Shown: positions 1,623 to 54,025 of the stretch, piece after piece
Layout of the letters: every line of letters begins with the position of its first letter
Position numbering within the stretch: the stretch's first letter is position 1
Origin: Candidatus Gottesmanbacteria bacterium
GTDB lineage: Bacteria; Patescibacteriota; Microgenomatia; JACOXO01
Direction: 5' to 3'
Assembly (NCBI GenBank): GCA_016182365.1
Contig: JACOXO010000015.1
Coordinates: 1-62,977 of the forward strand
Length of the DNA: 62,977 bases
Made by a program: the position numbers and the translations under genes
Notes under the pieces: generated by a model
Seen by the model: only the letters and a program-made list of their open reading frames with translations
Told to the model about the DNA's origin: nothing
Databases searched by the model: none

Positions 1623-1657
1623 CCAAATTACAAAATCCAAAATCCAAATATCAAAAA
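1623..1657. repeat. Heptad array, word CCAAAAT
   Basis: Five units in exact 7-nt register: CCAAATT, ACAAAAT, CCAAAAT, CCAAATA, TCAAAAA. It lies just past the 3' end of the minus-strand surface-protein gene. Unlike the other heptad loci I see no inverted partner array nearby. Confidence 0.55.
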
Positions 1658-2519: not shown

Positions 2520-2541
2520 CTATAGGATGTGGTTAGGGATC

Positions 2542-2618
2542 AGGTTTTAGGTTGTAGGTTTTAGTAAAGAAAATTTGCTTGAATTCCTATAACCTAACAC
2601 CTAGAACCTATAACCTAA
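2542..2618. repeat. Inverted heptad arrays, word AGGTTNN
   Basis: The left array is AGGTTTT, AGGTTGT, AGGTTTT (2542-2562). The right array, read on the minus strand, is AGGTTAT, AGGTTCT, AGGTGTT, AGGTTAT (2589-2616). Both keep a strict 7-nt period and face each other across about 24 nt, so the region folds as a long imperfect hairpin. It lies between two divergent genes, directly upstream of the -10 at 2624-2632. Confidence 0.7.
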
Positions 2619-7641: not shown

Positions 7642-7721
7642 TTATGTTATCTTCGAACGTGAATTATATATTGTACTTAATGCTCTCCTGGAGGCAGATA
7701 AAGAATTGGATAAACATGACA

Positions 7722-7838
7722 ATAGATGATTGATAATAGAGGATAGTTGTAGACAATTGAAAATTGAAGATAGATATTTCTATAATCTACAATCTACCTT
7801 CTACAACTACCATCAATATTCTATTTTCTATTGTCTAA
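7722..7838. repeat. Long hairpin of inverted heptad arrays, word ATAGANN/ATTGANN
   Basis: Left array in 7-nt register: ATAGATG, ATTGATA, ATAGAGG, ATAGTTG, TAGACA (6 nt), ATTGAAA, ATTGAAG, ATAGATA (7722-7776). The right array (about 7780-7834), read on the minus strand, is ATAGAAA, ATAGAAT, ATTGATG, GTAGTTG, TAGAAG (6 nt), GTAGATT, GTAGATT, ATAG. Even the single 6-nt unit is in the same place in both arms, so the two arms are colinear and make a stem of about 55 positions with a tiny loop. It fills the spacer between the 6928 gene and the M16 peptidase gene. Confidence 0.75.
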
Positions 7839-7903
7839 GAAATATGGCCTATAGCCAACTACTGCTTGCTATTTAGCTCTATTTCTCTTAAAATATTGTT
7901 TCT

Positions 7904-24785: not shown

Positions 24786-24884
24786 AATTTTTAATTTATA
24801 ATTTGTAATTTGAATTGAATATGATAATTTAAAAATTAATTAAATAAAAATTAAATTCAAATTTTAAACTTTAAATTTCAAATT
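24786..24884. repeat. Inverted heptad arrays, word AATTTNN
   Basis: Left array: AATTTTT, AATTTAT, AATTTGT, AATTTGA, ATTGAAT (24786-24820). The right array read on the minus strand: AATTTGA, AATTTAA, AGTTTAA, AATTTG (6 nt), AATTTAA (24851-24884). It lies between thyA and dcd, upstream of the thyA start. Low complexity makes this example less certain than those at 7722 or 2542. Confidence 0.6.
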
Positions 24885-34734: not shown

Positions 34735-34783
34735 TTTATGATTGTAATTATATAACGGCCGGTGTTAAAATACCAACAGTTAT

Positions 34784-34890
34784 AAATTCGAAATTCGAAT
34801 ATCGAAGCTCGAAACAATACTTTAAGTTTTAAAAATTCGAATTTAAAAAATTATAATTTGTTTCGTATTTCGGATTTCGTGCTTCGGATT
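34784..34890. repeat. Inverted heptad arrays, word CGAANNN
   Basis: Left: CGAAATT, CGAATAT, CGAAGCT, CGAAACA (34789-34816). Right: TTCG at 34862, 34869, 34876 and 34883, that is four CGAANNN units on the minus strand, ending at CGAAAC on the inner side. A single central ATTCGAAT lies at about 34836. The region separates the divergent PEGA gene and mreB and reads into the mreB start; the 14 codons upstream of ATG 34900 are this repeat, not coding sequence. Confidence 0.7.
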
Positions 34891-34899
34891 TTAAATTAT

Positions 34900-35904
34900 A
34901 TGTTTTCAAAACGTATCGGAATTGATCTAGGTACCGCAAACTCATTAGTCTACCTTGCTGGTCAAGGAATTGTCCTTAATGAACCTACAGTGGTTGCAGT
35001 GACAGTTGAAGAAAGAAGAGTGGTTGCTGTAGGAAATGAGGCTAAAGAAATGTTAGGCAGAACGCCCGGTAACTTAACCGCACTAAGACCTCTTAGGGAG
35101 GGGGTAATAGCTGATTACGAAGTAACTGAGGCTATGCTTAGGTATTTTATTGATAGAGTAATTGGGGCAAATAGAATCTTTAAGCCTGAGGTTATGGTAT
35201 GTATTCCAGCAGGATGCACGCAGGTTGAAAGGAGAGCTGTTATGGATGCAACTCTTTCTGCCGGAGCCAGGAATGTATATTTAATTGAAGAACCTTTGGC
35301 TGCAGCAATTGGGGCTAAAATTCCAATAGCCCTGCCTTCCGGCAATATGATTGTAGATTCCGGCGGAGGTTCAACAGAAGCTGCAATCATTTCATTAGGT
35401 GGAGTTGTAGCTCATAAAAGCGCTAGGGTAGCCGGTACAAAACTTGATGAAGCTATAGCCTCATATGTTAGGAAAAAACACAATCTTATAATCGGTGAAT
35501 TAGCTGCGGAAAACATTAAAATAACAATAGGGTCTGCAGTTAAACTCCAAAAAGAGGAAAAAATGGAAGTTAGAGGAAGAGACATGTTTTCTGGTTTACC
35601 CCGGATGATCGAGCTTACGTCTACTGAAGTCACTCAAGCTTTAGAATCAGCATTGCAGCTAATGATAGGAGCTATTAAAGGAGCCCTTGAACATACTCCT
35701 CCAGAATTAGCTTCAGACATAATTGACAAAGGCATTGTTTTAACCGGAGGAACTTCATTGCTTCGCAATTTTGACAAGTTGGCAACACGTGAGATTGGAG
35801 TAGTTTGTCATGTTGCCGAAGATCCATTATTTTGCGTAGCCAGAGGTACTGGAGTTGCTCTTGAAAATCTAGAACTTTATAAAAGAAGTGTATCAAAGTA
35901 TTAG
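34900..35904 (+). CDS. mreB: Rod-shape-determining protein MreB
   Basis: An actin-like ATPase of 334 residues that forms membrane filaments guiding lateral wall synthesis. Signature stretches: IGIDLGTANSLVYL (phosphate 1), VCIPAGCTQVERRAV, LIEEPLAAAIGA (connect), MIVDSGGGSTEAAII (phosphate 2) and IVLTGGTSLLRNFD (adenosine). I start at ATG 34900 because the earlier TTG lies in the heptad repeat. mreC and mreD are not adjacent. It works with PBP1A (27376) and the glycosyltransferase run. Confidence 0.93.
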   Translation: MFSKRIGIDLGTANSLVYLAGQGIVLNEPTVVAVTVEERRVVAVGNEAKEMLGRTPGNLTALRPLREGVIADYEVTEAMLRYFIDRVIGANRIFKPEVMVCIPAGCTQVERRAVMDATLSAGARNVYLIEEPLAAAIGAKIPIALPSGNMIVDSGGGSTEAAIISLGGVVAHKSARVAGTKLDEAIASYVRKKHNLIIGELAAENIKITIGSAVKLQKEEKMEVRGRDMFSGLPRMIELTSTEVTQALESALQLMIGAIKGALEHTPPELASDIIDKGIVLTGGTSLLRNFDKLATREIGVVCHVAEDPLFCVARGTGVALENLELYKRSVSKY

Positions 35905-35909
35905 TCAAT

Positions 35910-35984
35910 AGATCAGCAGATCAATAGATCATAGGATCAAATTATATTCTTTTTGTTTTTTTTTTCTTTTGATCTCTTGATCTT
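35910..35984. repeat. Inverted 8-nt-period arrays, word AGATCANN
   Basis: Left: AGATCAGC, AGATCAAT, AGATCATA, GGATCAA (35910-35940). Right, minus strand: AAGATCAA, GAGATCAA (35969-35984). Here the period is 8 nt, the only such locus with both arms. It lies between mreB and the YerC-like gene. Confidence 0.6.
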
Positions 35985-35991
35985 TTGTTTT

Positions 35992-36408
35992 ATGTCTCAA
36001 GTTTCTAAAACAAACCTAATTCCTAAAGTCCAACAGGGAATATACAATCAATTATATTGGGTGATTTCAAAATGCCAGGATTCTAAAGAGGTGGGTAATC
36101 TTCTTACTGAATTATTAACAAAAACAGAAAGAACCATAATAGCAAAAAGATTATTCATAGGAATATTACTCACAAAAGGATACAGCTATAGGCAGATAAG
36201 AACATTACTAAAAGTCTCATTTCCAACAATAACTATGGTAAAATTCTGGCTTGAGCATGGGGGTGGTGGATATAAAATTGCAATTGAGCGTATTCTAGGT
36301 AAAGATGAATTTAATAACGTCTTACAATTAATAGATAAGATCATAGACAGAAATAGTCCCGACGTTTCAGTCGGGATCCCGACCGCAAGCGCCGGGAATA
36401 ACTTATAG
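35992..36408 (+). CDS. YerC/TrpR-family HTH protein
   Basis: From ATG 35992 (138 residues) the protein matches the TrpR-like superfamily: TELLTKTERTIIAKRLFIGILL, GYSYRQIRTLLKVSFPTITMVKFWLEHGG, with a TrpR-like HTH (residues 60-100). YerC proteins are regulators of unknown ligand, not tryptophan repressors. The earlier start at 35953 lies in a T-rich stretch and is rejected. The C-terminal 20 residues (NSPDVSVGIPTASAGNNL) are encoded by two GC-rich palindromes and look like an acquired tail. Confidence 0.8.
   Translation: MSQVSKTNLIPKVQQGIYNQLYWVISKCQDSKEVGNLLTELLTKTERTIIAKRLFIGILLTKGYSYRQIRTLLKVSFPTITMVKFWLEHGGGGYKIAIERILGKDEFNNVLQLIDKIIDRNSPDVSVGIPTASAGNNL
36356..36394. repeat. GC-rich palindromes inside the YerC-like gene
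   Basis: CCCGAC-6 nt-GTCGGG (36358-36375) is the reverse complement of 893-913, followed by a second CCCG...CGGG hairpin (36378-36394). Together they encode the C-terminal PDVSVGIPTASAG. Confidence 0.7.
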
Positions 36409-36649: not shown

Positions 36650-37447
36650 ATGGAAGATACAATAAAAGTACTAGACATAAATATAACAACACTACCAGAG
36701 AATGATATCCTGGAGAGAATCGAAAAATACATAAAAAGTGTTAAGCGGGAAGCGGAAAGGGGAAAGAATTCCGGGCAGAAACCACTTACTATATTCACTC
36801 CAAATCCGGAAATAATAATGTATGCGCGTTCTCACCAATGGTTTGCCGAGATTGTCAATAAAGGCCAAATTAATATTCCTGATGGAGCCGGAGTTGTATG
36901 GGCGGTAAAAAGAAAAGGATATCCTGTAAACGGAAGAATTGCTGGTGCGGATTTAGCTTATAAACTGATTAGGCAGGCAAACAAACAGAACGTCACCATA
37001 GGACTTATAGGAGGAAAAGTTAAAATAGCACTTAGGGCACTCGAGTGCTTAAAGGAAGATTTACCGAGCTTAAAAGGTTGGGCAGAAGAAGGACCTGATA
37101 TAAAATTCGAAATTCGAAATTCGAAATTCGAAATTAGCTATGGAAACTGGAATATGGACGAGTTTATTAAAAGGGTACAAGAGAGAAACACTAAGGTTCT
37201 CCTCGTTGCTTTTGGTTTTCCAAAGCAAGAGCTATTTATAGATCAAATTTCCAAAAAACTTGAAGATATTGTGATTATGTCAGTGGGCGGTACCTTTGAC
37301 TACTGGTCAGGTAGTGTTAAAAGAGCACCAAGATGGATGCAGCAGAATAATTTAGAGTGGTTTTATAGATTATTAAAACAGCCCCACAGAATCAAAAGAC
37401 ATATTAGTGGATCAAAATTCTTCTTTTATAGTTATATAAATAAATAG
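36650..37447 (+). CDS. WecG/TagA/CpsF-family glycosyltransferase
   Basis: A 265-residue GT26-family enzyme that adds a UDP-linked amino sugar to a lipid carrier in wall or exopolysaccharide synthesis. Conserved blocks are all seen: IFTPNPEIIMYAR, IPDGAGVVWAVKR, RIAGADLAYKL, TIGLIGG, VLLVAFGFPKQELFID and VGGTFDYWSGSVKRAPRWMQ. A tandem CGAAATT repeat inside the gene (37102-37135) inserts KFEIRNSKFEI between the strand after GWAEEGPDI and the next helix. Likely first gene of the run to 43504. Confidence 0.88.
   Translation: MEDTIKVLDINITTLPENDILERIEKYIKSVKREAERGKNSGQKPLTIFTPNPEIIMYARSHQWFAEIVNKGQINIPDGAGVVWAVKRKGYPVNGRIAGADLAYKLIRQANKQNVTIGLIGGKVKIALRALECLKEDLPSLKGWAEEGPDIKFEIRNSKFEISYGNWNMDEFIKRVQERNTKVLLVAFGFPKQELFIDQISKKLEDIVIMSVGGTFDYWSGSVKRAPRWMQQNNLEWFYRLLKQPHRIKRHISGSKFFFYSYINK
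37102..37135 (+). repeat. In-frame tandem heptamer repeat (CGAAATT)x4 in the GT26 gene
   Basis: Four perfect CGAAATT units (37108-37135) preceded by AAAATT. Because 7 is not a multiple of 3, gain or loss of one unit shifts the frame, and three units restore it. The same word starts the mreB-upstream array at 34789. Confidence 0.85.
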
Positions 37448-52520: not shown

Positions 52521-52979
52521 ATGAAGGTATATTTAGGTGCAGACCACGGTGGTTTTGAGCTTAAGGAAAAAATAAAAGAACAGCTTGTTAGTGAAGGTTA
52601 TGAAGTTTTAGATTTAGGAAACGATCATTTTGACTTCCAGGATGATTACCCTGATTTTGCTTTTAAAGTAGCTGAAGCTGTAAGCAAAGATCTAGAAAGC
52701 CGGGGAATACTTTTTTGCCGTTCAGCAGCAGGTATGATTATTGCTGCCAACAAAGTTAAAAATGTAAGAGCTACAGCGGTTTGGGATCTCAAATCAGCAA
52801 TTCATTCCAGAGATAATAATGATGCTAATATCATTGGTCTGTCAGGTGATTGGTTATCAGACGATGAGGCTAGAGAAATAGTTAAGATATGGCTTACTAC
52901 CAAGTTTAACCAGGAAAAAAGGCATGTAAGGAGAATTGAAAAGATCTCTAATTACGAGCGTCTAGCGTCTAGGAGCTAG
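52521..52979 (+). CDS. rpiB: Ribose-5-phosphate isomerase B
   Basis: 152 residues. RpiB motifs: YLGADHGGFELKEKIK, the YPDFAFKVAEAV region, the catalytic-loop Cys66 (LFCRSAAGMIIAANK) and DLKSAIHSRDNNDANII. Interconverts ribulose- and ribose-5-phosphate. The loop is CRSAAG rather than the usual CGTGIG. The last nine residues (NYERLASRS) are encoded by the heptad repeat that flanks the next gene, so the natural C-terminus may have been altered. Confidence 0.88.
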   Translation: MKVYLGADHGGFELKEKIKEQLVSEGYEVLDLGNDHFDFQDDYPDFAFKVAEAVSKDLESRGILFCRSAAGMIIAANKVKNVRATAVWDLKSAIHSRDNNDANIIGLSGDWLSDDEAREIVKIWLTTKFNQEKRHVRRIEKISNYERLASRS

Positions 52980-52987
52980 CGTCTAGT
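52958..52987 (+). repeat. Left heptad arm flanking the four-helix-bundle gene
   Basis: GCGTCTA, GCGTCTA, GGAGCTA, GCGTCTA then GT up to the ATG at 52988. It starts inside the rpiB coding sequence and includes its TAG stop. The matching inverted arm is at 53360-53394. Confidence 0.8.
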
Positions 52988-53362
52988 ATGACTTACATTA
53001 AATCATATAAAGAACTTATAGTTTGGCAAAAGTCCATAGAACTTGTAAAAGAAGTGTATATTCTAACTAATAAATTTCCTAAATCAGAGCTTTATGGTAT
53101 TGTTAATCAAATGAGAAGAGCGGCAATATCGATTCCATCAAATATTGCTGAAGGTTATGGTAGATCCTCAATAAGAGAGTATAAACAGTCTTTTTCAATT
53201 GCATACGGCTCAGCGTTAGAATTAGAAACTCAAATTATAATAAGTAAAAAGTTACAATTTATGGAAAACAAAGAATTTTCAAGAATAGAATCTCTATTAG
53301 AAGAAGTTTTAAAGATGCTAAATAAAATGCTAAGTAATATTAGAAATAAATTGTCTGATTAA
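52988..53362 (+). CDS. Four-helix-bundle protein (IVS/S23-type)
   Basis: 124 residues: YKELIVWQKSIELVKEVYILTNKFPKSELYGIVNQMRRAAISIPSNIAEGYGR (in outline WQKSIELVKEVY, FPKSELYGIVNQMRRAAISIPSNIAEG) is the TIGR02436 signature of the family first found in 23S rRNA intervening sequences. The protein folds as a pentameric four-helix bundle and its role is unknown. CPR genomes carry many copies in variable positions. Here it splits rpiB from rpe and is bracketed by inverted heptad arrays. Confidence 0.9.
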   Translation: MTYIKSYKELIVWQKSIELVKEVYILTNKFPKSELYGIVNQMRRAAISIPSNIAEGYGRSSIREYKQSFSIAYGSALELETQIIISKKLQFMENKEFSRIESLLEEVLKMLNKMLSNIRNKLSD

Positions 53363-53394
53363 ACTAAACGCTAGACGCTATTAACTAAACGCTA
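53360..53394 (-). repeat. Right heptad arm flanking the four-helix-bundle gene
   Basis: TAAACTA, AACGCTA, GACGCTA, TTAACTA, AACGCTA (53360-53394), that is TAGCGTT/TAGCGTC units on the minus strand. It is inverted with respect to 52958-52987 and ends 5 nt before the rpe ATG. Confidence 0.8.
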
Positions 53395-53398
53395 ACTT

Positions 53399-54025
53399 AT
53401 GATTGAAGTTATTCCAGGCATTAACGAACAGACTTTTTCAGGTATTGAAAATAAACTTCATTTGGTTGAAAACTTGGTTCCCTGGGTTCATCTTGATATT
53501 GTTGATGAGCTATTTAACTTCAGCACATTCCGTGACCCTGTTCCTTTTAAAAATCTTAAATCCAAAGTTAAATGGGAAGTACATATGATGATAAATAATC
53601 CTGAAGATACAGTTGGGGATTGGGTGGATGCAGGGTTTTTACGGTTTATTGGTCATGTTGAAGGTATGAAAGACATAGGTAACTTTATTAAGACTGTAAG
53701 AAGTTATAAAAAAGAAGTGGGGTTGGCAGTTGATATTGTTACGCCTGTTTCTGTTATAGAGCCATACCTAACTAAAATTGACAATGTTCTAGTTATGAGT
53801 ATTCATACAGGTAAAAGCGGCCAGTCATTTATGAGCGAAGCTTTGGATAAAATAAGACAGGTTAGGCGCTTGAGCGGACAGATGCCCATTGAGGTTGATG
53901 GAGGAGTAAATCTAGAAACAGGCAAAATGGCAGTTGAGGCTGGAGTAACAAGACTTGTTTCAACAAGCTACATATTTAAGGCTCCAAATATCCAAAACGC
54001 AATTAAAATCCTGCAAGATCACTAA
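53399..54025 (+). CDS. rpe: Ribulose-phosphate 3-epimerase
   Basis: 208 residues with a TIM-barrel: WVHLDIVDELF (metal-binding His and Asp), HMMINNPEDTVGDWVDAG, VLVMSIHTGKSGQSF and IEVDGGVNLETGKMAVEAG. Interconverts ribulose- and xylulose-5-phosphate. It probably formed an operon with zwf-gnd-rpiB before the intervening gene arrived. Its stop overlaps the converging Nudix gene's stop by 4 nt. Confidence 0.88.
   Translation: MIEVIPGINEQTFSGIENKLHLVENLVPWVHLDIVDELFNFSTFRDPVPFKNLKSKVKWEVHMMINNPEDTVGDWVDAGFLRFIGHVEGMKDIGNFIKTVRSYKKEVGLAVDIVTPVSVIEPYLTKIDNVLVMSIHTGKSGQSFMSEALDKIRQVRRLSGQMPIEVDGGVNLETGKMAVEAGVTRLVSTSYIFKAPNIQNAIKILQDH

Follow-up and report, generated by a model that had tools for sequence, protein, structure and literature searches.

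Inverted heptad hairpins of a CPR genome as probable ORF-less relatives of elements carrying an rRNA intervening-sequence protein gene

The inverted arrays of degenerate 7-nt and 8-nt words in the intergenic DNA of a CPR genome are most likely non-autonomous members of an element family whose complete form carries the gene for the 23S rRNA intervening-sequence protein (IVP, PF05635). On this reading, to which we assign a probability of about 0.78, minimal mobile elements form the family and the hairpins are its ORF-less, MITE-like members. The reading rests on an IVP gene found inside such arrays, from dispersed hairpin copies, from empty sites, from an element lodged in a 16S rRNA gene, and from a prediction that held in another genome. 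Comparison between loci places the arrays at both ends of the IVP gene, and the complete element would consist of an array of a degenerate 7/8-nt word, the IVP gene, and an inverted array of the same word. The window analyzed here is the whole of contig C19 (62,977 nt) of the 1.04-Mb genome G000 (42 contigs).

A sequence-only reading of this window had described a 7-nt period at six loci and an 8-nt period at a seventh, and all were recovered. Period 7 is present at 1623-1657, 2542-2618, 7722-7838, 24786-24884, 34784-34890, and 52958-53394, and the period-8 array spans 35905-35993. When self-similarity was scanned at each shift, 43 intergenic period-7 arrays were detected in G000 versus 2-3 in Markov shuffles, followed by period 14 (a harmonic, 22 arrays), period 8 (19), and period 16 (17), with lower counts for the others. 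Strict inverted pairs numbered 19 for heptads and 9 for octads in the genome and zero in shuffles of intergenic composition. A low-complexity artefact is thereby ruled out, and the definition of the class by period and inversion stands; the period is also kept in IVP-bearing relatives. Within the window, three heptad pairs and one octad pair were strict (none in 30 shuffles each), which upholds the earlier claim of inverted pairing in part: the array at 1623-1657, possibly a lone arm, had no inverted partner that we could find. Folding far exceeded that of dinucleotide shuffles at four of the six loci checked (2525-2620, z -5.2; 7712-7845, z -5.9; 34778-34906, z -3.3; 35900-35993, z -5.0) and showed no gain over them at 24786-24884 (z -0.5) and 1600-1670. 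The features are as follows.

52955..52987, + strand: 5' arm of the complete IVP element, (C)TAGCGT words
52988..53362, + strand: IVP gene, the element's only gene, for a four-helix-bundle protein (PF05635, E 1.4e-38; TIGR02436)
53363..53394, - strand: 3' arm, inverted GACGCTA/AACGCTA words, ending just 5' of an rpe-like start codon at 53399
2529..2618, + strand: ORF-less hairpin, word AGGTNTT; relatives at C20 16321, C38 13989, C16 4505, and the ends of the C16 6888-7255 IVP element
7718..7838, + strand: ORF-less hairpin, word GANNATA, the hairpin singled out by the sequence-only reading; second copy at C33 31888-32017
24786..24884, + strand: ORF-less hairpin, word AATTTGA; relatives on C15, C20, C31, and at both ends of the C23 2124-2609 IVP element
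34784..34891, + strand: ORF-less hairpin, word CGAAATT, upstream of mreB in the spacer of a divergent gene pair; copies on C35 and C32
35905..35993, + strand: ORF-less hairpin, 8-nt word AGATCAAA; relatives on C4, C7, C14, and C23 (two)
1623..1657, - strand: single array, word CCAAAAT
37103..37135, no strand assigned: perfect AAATTCG x4.7 array inside a WecB/TagA/CpsF glycosyltransferase ORF, with the word of the 34784 family

The locus at 52958-53394 had been listed as one more hairpin and its gene overlooked: the inverted arrays enclose a complete PF05635 ORF, and the loop is the IVP gene itself. Eight IVP genes, one of them split, were identified in G000, and arrays of 7-9 nt, some weak, adjoin all eight; five pass the threshold for 7/8-nt arrays on both sides. 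Their words include AGGTNTT (C16), AATTTGA (C23), ACCAATT (C24), and octads (C21 and C36), and on C39 they are AATTGATA and a weaker 8-9-nt array. The AGGTNTT-flanked gene on C16 (6934-7177) is split between two frames, so the sole resident IVP gene with the word of 2542-2618 looks broken.

The association extends well beyond this genome. Of the 59 class genomes, 47 contain IVP genes, a scan of bacterial and archaeal genomes added 80 loci, and a viral scan yielded 32; 157 IVP loci were compared in all. Contigs were scanned with a ten-sequence alignment, as the full IVP alignment is too diverse. Arrays of 7/8 nt stood on both sides of 104 of the 157 IVP loci compared with 12 of 208 control ORFs from the same loci, and an inverted flank alignment score of at least 18 was reached by 83 and 6, respectively. 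One third of IVP loci had no both-sided arrays at the threshold used. Arrays on one side occurred in 28% of control ORFs, probably a consequence of the numerous ORF-less copies in these genomes. The density of period-7 windows in the 200 bp upstream of IVP genes was roughly ten times that found elsewhere (16% versus approximately 1.5%). Array-bearing IVP loci were recovered from Bacteroidota, Acidobacteriota, Planctomycetota, Chloroflexota, Bacillota (Clostridia), Elusimicrobiota, Omnitrophota, Kiritimatiellota, Ignavibacteriota, Pseudomonadota, Cyanobacteria, CPR, Methanophagales archaea, and viral contigs. On cyanobacterial, Riemerella, and Gemmatirosa plasmids, as in the class of G000, the flanks are mostly inverted arrays with words of each lineage's own. 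The earlier comparison with cyanobacterial heptamers was well placed, since cyanobacterial IVP genes carry the same inverted heptads. IVP elements also lie between cas6/cas4 and cas10/cmr3 in cyanobacterial plasmid CRISPR modules (L116, L120, and L121), and IVP genes have been noted in cas loci before (PMC3936711).

The accessory protein Avd (bAvd) of diversity-generating retroelements (DGRs) belongs to the same four-helix-bundle superfamily and has the same fold. Unlike IVP loci, Avd loci adjoin a reverse transcriptase (RT) and carry no both-sided arrays or inverted heptads (0 of 5). The bAvd genes of CPR relatives (L139-L142) have a DGR-like context and variable-repeat-like sequence and are without heptad arms.

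The arms adjoin the IVP ORF closely, with medians of 9 nt before the start codon and 4 nt after the stop codon, and have a median length of 37-38 nt, most commonly 4 to 5.5 units. They are polar with respect to the gene: the 5' arm is G-rich in 87% of IVP loci (n = 120) and the 3' arm C-rich in 79% (n = 96), while TAG occurs 1.73 times per arm read inward versus 0.38 times read outward across all collections. Repeats of period 7 or 8 shift through the reading frame from unit to unit, which those of period 6 or 9 do not. A three-frame stop array was considered as the purpose of the arms and rejected, because all frames were closed in only 45% of arms despite the inward enrichment of TAG. Relative to both neighboring genes, IVP genes of the genome collection were sense in 42 cases and antisense in 3 (p = 9e-10); viral IVP loci, which represent few lineages, were antisense in 19 of 32. 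No clear orientation bias was seen among ORF-less hairpins, so that the bias of IVP genes is more likely due to dependence on read-through expression than to insertion itself.

The words track the IVP protein. Their similarity was 0.90 between loci whose IVPs are more than 80% identical, 0.69 at 70-80%, and approximately 0.12 below 50%, and after removal of background composition the partial Mantel correlation was 0.24, compared with 0.088 for the best of 500 permutations. This correlation could reflect plain linkage. Periods 7 and 8 did not cluster on the IVP tree, a result at odds with a period dictated by the geometry of the protein. One word per IVP protomer, with the protein setting the period, is conceivable in that arms of 4-5.5 units would suit a pentamer, but the scatter of periods counts against it. 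Xanthomonas S23p is a homopentamer (PMC4990558), and PDB entries 2gsc and 2rld each contain five chains. For the arms at 7722-7838, held by the sequence-only reading to be colinear unit by unit, the shared 6-nt unit is present but the colinearity finds no statistical support, because shuffled unit order scores equally well (p = 0.38). Colinear arms are no general rule either, as they reached p <= 0.05 in just 3 of 58 IVP loci.

The hairpins without an ORF are dispersed copies. Each locus had been credited with a word of its own, and this could not be sustained, as relatives of each paired ORF-less locus occur at other places in G000. For the hairpin at 34784-34891, copies of 86% identity lie at C35 28841-28964 and C32 8844-8949, and for that at 7718-7838 a copy of 74% identity over 130 bp lies at C33 31888-32017; the flanks of these copies are unrelated and score as shuffles do. 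Strong relatives numbered four for the 24786 hairpin, two for 2542, and five for 35905, and shuffled queries returned none. Furthermore, the two ends of the IVP element on C23 both match the 24786 hairpin, and the 2542 hairpin matches the C16 IVP element. Like MITEs, then, the hairpins form many copies with unrelated flanks, and the AATTTGA and AGGTNTT families share their ends with a resident gene-carrying element. The CGAAATT and AGATCAAA families do not, there being no resident IVP for either in the 92%-complete G000 assembly. The ORF-less arrays of G000 scored 0.578 against resident IVP words versus 0.441 against those of other genomes, and those of G037 scored 0.627 versus 0.458; both resident matches lay above all 200 resamples. 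Heptad arrays reach very high copy number in the relatives G030 and G037, and near-identical TTAGNNN arms occur at at least 10 places in G030.

Mobility of the elements is well supported by sites that are occupied in one genome and empty in another. In Picosynechococcus PCC 7003 an IVP element separates cas10 from cmr3, genes that lie approximately 11 nt apart in PCC 7002, and the nrdB-nrdA spacer holds an IVP element in Nostoc edaphicum and none in Calothrix NIES-4105. A third candidate, Dolichospermum versus Anabaena 90, was set aside because another insertion confounds it. Within a single genus, IVP elements occupy a site in both G017 and G037 that is empty in the IVP-less G053. The two elements have different words and proteins 43% identical, suggesting independent insertions at one site. 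Across 31 syntenic sites, 66 arrays were counted in G037 and 3 in G053, and the length difference equaled the element length (median off by 5 nt). At several of these sites G037 combines arrays of unlike words, a pattern expected of nested insertion. Genome-wide, period-7 arrays amounted to 298 per Mb in G037 and to 68 per Mb in the 0.44 Mb of G053 examined, the latter being about its period-6 level. Among the 59 class genomes, the number of TTAGNNN arrays rose with IVP count (rho = 0.61, p = 3e-7), and the twelve IVP-free genomes held one such array in total. Neither a target-site duplication nor a within-species insertion was discernible, the closest genome pair being approximately 74% identical at the compared sites. 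These comparisons show the elements to be present or absent as blocks and to exist as dispersed ORF-less copies, with words that follow the IVP lineage and an array abundance that depends on IVP.

An element in G037 joins this class to the classical rRNA intervening sequences. At C1 774141-774793 (L308), an IVP gene with TTAACNN/GTTAANN arms lies inside helix 6 of the 16S rRNA, an assignment that rests on position and pairing, and further along the same 16S gene is an ORF-less CAACNNN/GTTGNNN hairpin. Both insertions are absent in G053, and G017 has an IVP there. The intervening sequences of Leptospira, Coxiella, and Brucella carry the same lone PF05635 gene (S23p/IVP) with terminal inverted repeats and the ORF in the loop. 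That of Coxiella has tandem GACAGAT heptamers, variable in unit number, before the S23p ORF, and a 28-bp stem, with excision by RNase III (PMC4990558). IVP genes have also been noted in CPR rRNA insertions (PMC11270868). At 52955-53394, PF05635 is likewise encoded in the loop of inverted repeats; the ORF-less hairpins of the window do not encode it. The elements differ from rRNA intervening sequences in that those of the window are intergenic rather than in an rRNA helix, as the one in the G037 16S gene is, and that nearly all adjoin protein genes, with many 7/8-nt words and many ORF-less hairpins alongside.

Other repeat systems resemble the hairpins in part. REP/BIME sequences with RAYT (TnpA-REP) are dispersed hairpins, non-autonomous in that they rely on a small protein encoded separately; IVP, however, has no Y1 transposase domain, and the arms are degenerate tandem words rather than one palindrome. 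MITEs of DNA transposons are likewise internal-deletion derivatives that keep inverted ends, whereas here arrays of degenerate words form the ends, no transposase is encoded by the full element, and target-site duplications were not discerned. The short tandemly repeated repetitive (STRR) heptamers of cyanobacteria, with which comparison was by published description, the GGGAATC repeats of Xanthomonas, and the TAACTGA repeats of Beggiatoaceae are intergenic tandem heptamers as those here are, but have been described as single words in particular genomes and without an associated gene. For GGGAATC, 70-75 convergent inverted pairs per genome have been reported in Xanthomonas (PMC4692102).

Given this, we asked whether a genome with GGGAATC arrays also holds a GGGAATC-flanked IVP gene. 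Of 369 genomes sampled from a gammaproteobacterial class, one (G428) had such an array, and its single IVP gene is flanked by GGGAATC and GATTCCC units, so that the prediction held. The reversed pattern led to G216, in which an IVP gene lies between GGGCCAA and CCTTGGCC arrays. Where viral contigs carried GGGAATC arrays, the stretches examined showed no IVP, and no relative of the IVP XCC0516 (PDB 2gsc) was found among phage records.

Several other explanations were weighed. The arrays might be simple repeats, made in place by polymerase slippage and inverted by template switching, with IVP settling nearby. Among long simple repeats, heptamers are the most frequent in many bacteria (PMC4679880), unit number varies, also in the Coxiella intervening sequence (PMC4990558), and the lone array at 1623-1657 and the perfect array inside the ORF at 37103 look the part. 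Near-identical dispersed hairpins with unrelated flanks, block presence or absence at the 31 orthologous sites, the lack of arrays in IVP-free genomes, words that follow the IVP lineage, and a strand polarity set by the gene all make this account distinctly improbable, although slippage may change unit number after insertion. It is also unlikely, if somewhat easier to entertain, that the hairpins are host-owned REP/BIME-like repeats moved by another enzyme and that the IVP gene is a parasite homing into them. Some word families without a resident IVP, the lack of a known catalytic domain in IVP, and an orientation bias in IVP copies with no clear one in ORF-less hairpins are in line with it, but IVP-free class genomes and a same-genus genome are without arrays, empty sites lack both array and IVP, and words match resident IVPs.

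Regulatory roles for neighboring genes, as terminators, attenuators, or RNA-processing sites, would suit the intergenic position near starts and stops and the stable folds at four of six loci. Members of one family nevertheless adjoin unrelated genes, are absent at orthologous sites, and occur inside operons and 16S rRNA, so that we consider such roles very unlikely as an explanation. The least credible account has IVP, like its relative Avd, helping an RT to copy element RNA. Homology to Avd and the sense orientation of IVP copies speak for it; against it, ORF-less hairpins show no sense bias, and RVT_1 was found neither in G000 nor in 21 of 28 class genomes with at least three IVPs. An RT is thus not required in the same genome; one encoded there is essentially refuted, and an outside RT would be needed.

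For the preferred reading, in which the hairpins are ORF-less members of the IVP-element family, a mechanism can be proposed. IVP, as an oligomeric (pentameric) ring, would recognize its own word in the folded arm and act in trans on hairpins bearing that word. The copying chemistry would come from host enzymes, because the element has no recognizable nuclease, transposase, or reverse transcriptase. By analogy with rRNA intervening sequences, RNase III would cleave the double-stranded arms in host transcripts, which could make insertions in operons and rRNA helices tolerable. IVP probably lacks its own promoter and persists only at places where read-through allows its expression, which would account for its sense orientation. 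We see even odds that a ring-forming four-helix-bundle protein reads the degenerate 7/8-nt word of the inverted terminal arrays and drives copying of whichever hairpins bear it, and that rRNA intervening sequences, STRRs, Xanthomonas heptamers, and CPR hairpins are one system, a previously unrecognized class of minimal mobile elements that bacteria, archaea, and viruses all harbor. The open-access papers contained the separate pieces, with no statement that heptamer arrays generally flank IVP genes or that heptad hairpins are their ORF-less relatives. If the hairpins and IVP elements are so related, cyanobacterial and Xanthomonas heptamers, CPR intergenic hairpins, and the intervening sequences that fragment rRNA would have one origin. 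The very widespread PF05635/TIGR02436 'four helix bundle protein', which has a solved structure and no known role, would be accounted for as well, and its role would become directly testable through own-word binding and hairpin movement.

Arrays also reach into coding sequence. The 5' array of the IVP element at 52955-53394 supplies the last codons and the stop of the rpiB-like ORF at 52521-52979. A perfect AAATTCG array within a predicted ORF, like that at 37103-37135, was also found at C39 12477-12510. In the WecB/TagA/CpsF ORF of the window, 187 residues align with 174 profile positions, which fits an in-frame insertion of approximately 12 residues (KFEIRNSKFEIS).
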